Source: Candidatus Yonathbacteria bacterium RIFCSPLOWO2_01_FULL_47_33b (GTDB lineage Bacteria > Patescibacteriota > Minisyncoccia > Phycocordibacterales > UBA1550). From it: DNA of 35,052 nucleotides. The stretch lies in the NCBI GenBank assembly GCA_001823575.1, contig MHUW01000013.1, forward strand, positions 1-35,052. The letters run 5' to 3'. Below are positions 10,894-11,495 of this stretch, piece by piece; position 1 is the stretch's first letter, and every line of letters begins with the position of its first letter. The position numbers and the translations under genes are program-made. Under the pieces are notes generated by a model. It was not told where the DNA came from. It saw nothing but the letters and a program-made list of their open reading frames with translations, and did not search any database.

Positions 10894-10964
10894 TGCGGGA
10901 TCGTCTAATGGTAGGACACATCCCTCTGGAGGATGTTATCTTGGTTCGAATCCAGGTCCCGCAG
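10894..10964 (+). tRNA. tRNA-Gln(CTG)
   Basis: Cloverleaf by eye: acceptor TGCGGGA/TCCCGCA with U1-A72 and G73, D arm GTC...GAC, anticodon arm CATCC-CTCTGGA-GGATG, T arm CTTGG-TTCGAAT-CCAGG. Confidence 0.88.
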
Positions 10965-11328
10965 CACTTCGACAGGCTCAGTGCCTAAAATTCTACAATG
11001 GGTTATTTTGTATATATTCTTCTTTGCAATCAGAAAACTTTTTATACAGGGAGCACCGATAATCTAGAAAGGAGAATCAAGGAACATAAAAGCAAAAAAT
11101 CATTTTACACGAAACAGTTTTCTGATATCGAGCTCGTTTACCAAGAGACATGCAAAGGAAAAATGGAAGCTGAGAAGAGAGAGTTTCAGATAAAGGGATG
11201 GAGTGCCGCAAAGAAGAGAGCTCTTATTGGTGGCAACAAGGAACTACTTAAGAAACTAAGTAAAAGCACTGAGTCTGTCGACGTACTGTGATAGAACAGT
11301 GGTGAGCTTGTCGAACCAGTCCCGCAGC
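10956..11328. mobile_element. Candidate GIY-YIG mini-element at the tRNA-Gln 3' end
   Basis: Direct repeat GTCCCGCAGC at 10956-10965 and 11319-11328; inverted TTCGACAGGCTCAGTG / CACTGAGTCTGTCGACG and GTGAGCTTGTCGAA at the ends. Confidence 0.55.
10998..11291 (+). CDS. Small GIY-YIG nuclease family protein
   Basis: GYFVYILLCNQKTFYTGSTDNLERRIKEHKS. Confidence 0.92.
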   Translation: MGYFVYILLCNQKTFYTGSTDNLERRIKEHKSKKSFYTKQFSDIELVYQETCKGKMEAEKREFQIKGWSAAKKRALIGGNKELLKKLSKSTESVDVL

Positions 11329-11340
11329 TGAATTTAAGTT

Positions 11341-11495
11341 TTTTGCTCGACCCAGTAGGTCATTCTGGTGAATGAGAAGCGTTCCTATACAAAAAAGCTA
11401 AAAATCGCGTCGCAGTGTCTCGCCTAGAGACGCAAGACGTGAACTAGGTAAAGGAGCAAAAATCACACCAGGAATGAGAACATTTCTGGTGTGAT
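11341..11495 (+). ncRNA. Putative structured noncoding region
   Basis: TTTTGCTC...GAGCAAAA closure, TCATTC-tggt-GAATGA, GTCTC-gccta-GAGAC, then ATCACACCAG...CTGGTGTGAT. Confidence 0.35.

Follow-up and report, generated by a model that had tools for sequence, protein, structure and literature searches.

Among the described systems closest to the locus considered here are the GIY-YIG-encoding insertions in CPR rRNA genes, which are not intron-like and lie mostly at the tops or bases of stem-loops (J Bacteriol 2024, PMC11270868); they are sparse, were judged to fall outside spread by homing and stand unexplained (PMC11270868). These insertions and the element present in our window (by which we mean the whole stretch of 35,052 nucleotides that was analysed) have in common a GIY-YIG gene within a structural RNA gene in the same bacterial group; the element differs, however, in its tRNA 3'-end target, its fixed target repeat and its hairpin termini, and the main text of that study mentions neither tRNA nor repeats (PMC11270868). 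SegB of phage T4 is a free-standing GIY-YIG homing endonuclease encoded in a tRNA region (PMC2988022). The likeness consists in a GIY-YIG nuclease gene among tRNA genes, whereas SegB is a phage homing enzyme that spreads by homologous repair. We know of no terminal hairpins and no target repeat associated with SegB. The Tsy transposon, which encodes YRec, TnsF and a GIY-YIG nuclease whose removal impaired transposition although it is not essential (PMC10293859), resembles the element in having a GIY-YIG nuclease gene in a site-specific transposon, but its recombination is performed by tyrosine recombinases (PMC10293859).

Other comparisons concern the termini and the target. REP/RAYT systems likewise feature imperfect palindromes of short length, many of them solitary and some flanking an enzyme gene as inverted pairs; the element nevertheless carries a GIY-YIG rather than a Y1 gene, its hairpins have a TTCG...CTCA apex, one clade has a tRNA target, and the linked Y1 (HUH) transposase that characterizes REP/RAYT systems is absent from the element. 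Elements inserted in tRNA genes by tyrosine integrases leave the tRNA intact and repeat its 3' end, as is the case here, but the element of the window has no integrase, measures only about 0.4 kb and consists of a single gene with hairpin ends; neither a tyrosine nor a serine integrase lies between the repeats of the family, whose spacing of 363-432 bp accommodates the GIY-YIG ORF only.

The window belongs to contig C13 of a genome of 719 kb in 22 contigs, which we place in the Patescibacteria. The initial annotation had proposed that a lone small GIY-YIG gene lies here between duplicated tRNA-Gln ends, and this is what we find. The target gene, a tRNA-Gln(CTG) on the forward strand at 10894-10965 (ARAGORN; 58.5 bits for the Rfam tRNA family), is kept intact, and its last ten bases, GTCCCGCAGC (10956-10965, forward strand), recur as an exact match at 11319-11328 on the same strand, 363 bp away, no third copy being present in the window. 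Enclosed by these direct repeats is an inserted element of 353 bp (10966-11318, forward strand), a delimitation that agrees with the layout of related elements, and within it lies a forward-strand gene of 97 codons at 10998-11291 whose product matches PF01541 with an E value of 2e-15. Residues Y6, Y16, G18, R26, H30 and E62 are invariant across 17 aligned relatives, and the domain together with these conserved residues places the protein in the GIY-YIG superfamily; its relatives in the PDB are the UPF0213 proteins 1zg2 and 1ywl. Further GIY-YIG relatives, all below 50% identity, occur on viral contigs (5) and in plasmid and phage records (11).

Hairpins flank the gene on either side. The left terminal hairpin, GCACTTCGACAGGCTCAGTGC (10964-10984, forward strand), has the structure GCACT-TCGACAGGCTC-AGTGC and can also be given as TTCGACAGGCTCA; it is recognized by its sequence, its fold and the covariation of stems across the family, and the final bases of the tRNA form part of its outer stem. 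On the right, an outer hairpin, TGGTGAGCTTGTCGAACCA, folded as TGGT-GAGCTTGTCGA-ACCA, occupies 11300-11318 on the reverse strand, is the same in the sister genome G006 and near-identical at loci L190 and L193. The inner right hairpin, GCACTGAGTCTGTCGACGTACTG (11266-11288, reverse strand), repeats the left terminus in inverted and decayed form, is better kept in G006 and overlaps the 3' end of the ORF, so that the protein tail STESVDVL is encoded on it; the claim that one of the inverted termini codes for the nuclease tail (STESVDV) is thus borne out. The counterpart in G006 ends in STEPVEVL, encoded on GCACTGAACCTGTTGAAGTGC, and in several members of the clade described below an inverted counterpart of the left hairpin likewise overlaps the tail, which ties the gene and the end of the element together.

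Taken in isolation, the window offers little to distinguish its hairpins from chance: its 13-mers have three matches with at most two mismatches against 0.88 expected, a number that 6 of 100 shuffled sequences reach, and chance plausibly accounts for the two 13-mers when they are judged from the window alone. Neither the left nor the right hairpin is unusual in the stability of its DNA fold; stability being uninformative in this case, we take stem covariation as the evidence for hairpins instead. It is therefore comparison with other loci, not the window's own 13-mers, that sets the pattern apart from chance.

When 84,980 species genomes were scanned using an alignment of four GIY-YIG proteins of this kind, 80 loci distributed over many phyla emerged, and the best matches share one layout, namely a tRNA end, a hairpin, the gene, a hairpin and the repeated tRNA end. 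The proposal that REP-like termini use a tRNA end as target is supported, and the same layout recurs at many tRNAs in one protein clade: the targets comprise tRNA-Gln(CTG), Gln(TTG), Asp, Glu, Ser(CGA), Ser(TGA) and Asn as well as intron-bearing tRNAs. Twelve members have a repeated tRNA end, exact in the window, in G006 and in eight others and near-exact at L189 and L196. The long exact repeats, whose boundaries the initial annotation had singled out for examination, measure 16-18 bp and extend from just after the T-loop TTCG or TTCA to the end of the tRNA, with TCCG preceding the first copy in one case and a start one base further at L188 and L190. Each repeat matches its own tRNA and is hence made at insertion rather than carried along. 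The distance from repeat to repeat is 363-432 bp (444 bp in G006, where it includes a further repeat module, M), the inserted length is about 350-415 bp across the family, no gene other than the GIY-YIG ORF lies within the repeats of the clade's elements, and most members have their hairpins precisely at the junction with the tRNA. The repeat of the window itself is shorter (10 bp), and comparison with TTCGAATCCAGGTCCCGCAGC suggests that it was once longer and lost a few bases by small deletions.

In a tree of 84 proteins, which is built on a short alignment and leaves many forks open, all twelve repeat-bearing members fall in a single clade of 18 rows with support of 88/86. A member from the Planctomycetales sits inside this clade among Patescibacteria, a placement that suggests transfer between phyla, and six of the 18 members have no clean tRNA repeat, their repeats being decayed or lost. 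Two of the target tRNAs hold group I introns (L196 and L202), missed by ARAGORN and found by Rfam. At these loci (about 2698-2892 and 2500-2878, respectively) the GIY-YIG element is situated at the 3' end of the intron-bearing tRNA gene; the intron is in the upstream tRNA and not around the GIY-YIG gene, as it would be in group I intron homing, and the window has no intron match.

Close relatives differ in whether the site is occupied. The sister species G006 shares with the window the same tRNA, the right hairpin and GTCCCGCAGC, and its GIY-YIG gene is 88% identical; module M, of about 100 bp, there separates the tRNA from the GIY-YIG gene, whereas in the window M follows the second GTCCCGCAGC (11329-11445, forward strand), outside the GIY-YIG element, so that the order of element and module differs between sister genomes. 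G009 has the tRNA, then M, and then what appears by eye to be the dead remains of a left hairpin and gene start. In G006, G009 and G014 the tRNA-Gln is syntenic, being preceded by pyrG and a gene of 106 aa, and at this site in G014 there is no hairpin, gene or repeat 3' of the tRNA. By synteny, G014 represents a site without the insert, though this could reflect loss rather than a site that never gained it. In G055, of another family of the same order, a GIY-YIG gene 57% identical to that of the window lies at a different tRNA-Gln (TTG), in the order tRNA, left hairpin GCACTTCGGCAAGCTCAGTGC, gene, hairpin CCCTGAGGATATCGAAGGG and the tRNA end repeated over 17-18 bp; in G028, G436 and G019, whose tRNA-Gln sites are related to that of G055 and not proven orthologues of it, the tRNA is joined directly to the flank found 3' of the second repeat in G055. 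The comparison of occupied and unoccupied relatives consequently shows a site filled in some and not in others. The empty tRNA-Gln sites that the initial annotation had called for can accordingly be pointed to, and of the two outcomes it had named as contrary to its reading, occupation in all relatives and repeats that do not track with GIY-YIG genes, neither was found.

Module M deserves mention in its own right. It consists of CGATTTTAAGTTTTTTGC...GACGTGAACT, has two hairpins and a DNA fold z of -2.7, and recurs in the genus, both behind the ends of tRNAs and within leftover tRNA halves (the window, L069, L072, L082, L083 and L090); it is probably a mobile hairpin element of its own.

The association of the hairpins with GIY-YIG genes was assessed on the 80 loci, for whose selection nothing but protein similarity had been used. 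The core TTCGRCARRCTCA, with at most one mismatch, occurs 67 times in the 26.6 kb adjoining the gene as opposed to once in 265.7 kb lying more than 1 kb away (2.52 versus 0.0038 per kb), and hairpins defined by a TTCG...CTCA apex and a stem of at least 3 bp number 120 in 34.2 kb versus 10 in 265.7 kb (3.5 versus 0.038 per kb, an approximately 90-fold enrichment); in 58 of the 80 loci at least one such hairpin stands within 200 bp of the GIY-YIG gene. This enrichment leads us to reject chance as the origin of the 13-mers, and it answers affirmatively, across many phyla, whether other GIY-YIG genes have these termini. Among 113 distinct sites found by the core alone, stem pairing at positions 1-4 is far above that of shuffled partners and involves several pair types, so the stems covary and the sites form genuine hairpins in which the apex is fixed and the stem variable. 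Conversely, when 109 ORFs adjoining core-found hairpins are classified with no family singled out in advance, GIY-YIG is the top Pfam family, with five members (including L171, added by hand, and the window's own gene) versus two for the next best. Across 286 genomes of the phylum the core 13-mer far outnumbers its reversed control, and about 95% of solitary TTCGACARGCTCA hairpins have no adjoining GIY-YIG gene; these solo hairpins may spread by other means too, or be leftovers. Only three of 124 core sites, the window's among them, lie just downstream of a tRNA, on which ground a general preference of the hairpins for tRNA ends is rejected; it is the GIY-YIG clade that has the tRNA target, given how little tRNA preference the solo hairpins display.

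Hairpins and GIY-YIG genes also meet in other configurations. In the tRNA array of L117 (G222, about 2000-2500), a GIY-YIG gene of another clade lies beside a tRNA-Cys, some 33 bp of the tRNA 5' end are duplicated, and immediately downstream of the CCA of two tRNAs stand TTCGA...CTCA hairpins with a stem that pairs with ACCA. At L281, L293, L296 and L297, all from Patescibacteria, GIY-YIG genes of other clades stand directly after or between tRNA genes, some with hairpins of different sequence. At L149 and L191 the hairpin upstream of the GIY-YIG gene is interrupted by the palindrome CCTGCCTGCCGGCAGGCAGG, which suggests nested repeat insertions.

In our judgement the window's copy is probably one of a family of miniature mobile elements, each composed of a single small GIY-YIG gene between REP-like hairpins, that insert at tRNA 3' ends and leave the tRNA intact, the nuclease cutting the tRNA gene and repair duplicating 16-17 bp. 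The regular content, the fixed target, the target-specific repeat and the terminal hairpins are what lead us to read these loci as mobile elements, and the nuclease is the simplest candidate for the mover, since it is the sole protein in the element and retains the conserved residues. Anatomy, target, direct repeat, the link between clade and target, insert-free sites and hairpin covariation are all shown by comparison; that the GIY-YIG protein acts on the hairpin ends and drives movement, the self-contained character that the initial annotation had proposed, is what we infer from them, and the cut positions, their order and the mode of transfer (cut-and-paste, copying or homing-type repair) are likewise conjectural. 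Under this model the nuclease would recognize the T-arm and 3' end of the tRNA gene, with its loop TTCG/TTCA-A, and would cut or nick near the T-loop (after TTCR57) and just past the last base of the tRNA; the element, whose hairpins would mark the ends of the moving DNA, would be recognized by them and joined at the opened tRNA gene, and repair would then duplicate the 16-17 bp lying between the cuts. The TTCGA that begins the hairpin apex resembles the tRNA T-loop, and given this likeness one recognition module might serve both the tRNA target and the hairpin ends. The overhangs left by GIY-YIG homing enzymes are generally considered to be short, and short overhangs alone do not explain a repeat of 16-17 bp, which counts against insertion driven by the nuclease.

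The best surviving alternative, though an unlikely one, is a free-standing homing endonuclease gene, comparable to SegB, that cuts alleles without the gene and spreads by recombination, hairpins and repeats being incidental. In classical homing the flanks are copied through homology and no target repeat arises, whereas the repeats described here are 16-18 bp long, match each its own tRNA and have reached tRNAs of several kinds rather than homologous alleles only; nor, to our knowledge, are terminal hairpins a feature of homing genes. What speaks for homing is the GIY-YIG fold itself and the fact that the gene of SegB, likewise a GIY-YIG homing enzyme, has tRNA genes on both sides (PMC2988022).

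Slightly less probable still is that we are looking at the remnant of a tRNA-targeted island, in which a tyrosine integrase made the repeats as attL and attR, most of the island was deleted and the GIY-YIG gene was a passenger. The repeat is indeed placed where integrase att sites lie, and integrase islands commonly duplicate tRNA 3' ends; yet content and size (363-432 bp between repeats) stay the same across members of different phyla, without an integrase, the trait tracks one GIY-YIG clade, and in most members hairpins occupy the precise junction with the tRNA. With no integrase and a fixed size, the island remnant is disfavoured.

Movement of REP-like hairpins by a Y1/HUH transposase such as RAYT, with the GIY-YIG gene as cargo or frequent neighbour, seems the least probable of these alternatives, and we reject it as the mover: the hairpins do look REP-like and mostly lack an adjoining GIY-YIG gene, and some Y1_Tnp match occurs in five of eight genomes, but G082, G186 and G211, each at least 97% complete, bear hairpins without any Y1_Tnp match, a Y1 gene lies within 200 bp in only one of 90 hairpin loci (one query sequence) and there has different ends of its own, and it is GIY-YIG that is the commonest hairpin neighbour. 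We also set aside the idea that the repeat derives from the tRNA duplications common in the genus, the layout recurring at other tRNAs and in other lineages.

Those duplications form a separate observation. The tRNA-Gln genes of the genus show tRNA-in-tRNA duplications at L080 (G005), L090 (G006), L096 (G010), L073 (G007), L075 and L084 (G004), L083 (G013) and L088 (G012). At these loci a complete tRNA-Gln is accompanied by what is left of a tRNA: its 5' part (evident at L080 and L090), its 3' half from about position 29, or both. Inverted-repeat arms on either side of the complete gene often lengthen its acceptor stem. They occur without GIY-YIG and look like a separate insertion process.

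These results point to a kind of mobile element that has not been described, a claim of novelty that rests on the failure of the tested features of known systems and on searches of an open-access library, in which no link between GIY-YIG and REP-like hairpins was found. More tentatively, and with somewhat less than even confidence, we propose that these are transposable elements of a new class: a lone GIY-YIG nuclease would mobilize TTCG...CTCA hairpins, one clade would target the tRNA T-arm and 3' end by mimicry of the T-loop, and the same pairing of enzyme and hairpin would explain the widespread REP-like repeats of many phyla. If true, this would define a class of minimal mobile elements made of one nuclease of fewer than 100 aa and hairpins, provide a likely source of the hairpin repeats in Patescibacteria and many other phyla, furnish a naturally occurring enzyme with selectivity for tRNA genes, and offer a possible reason for the unexplained GIY-YIG insertions in the rRNA genes of these bacteria.
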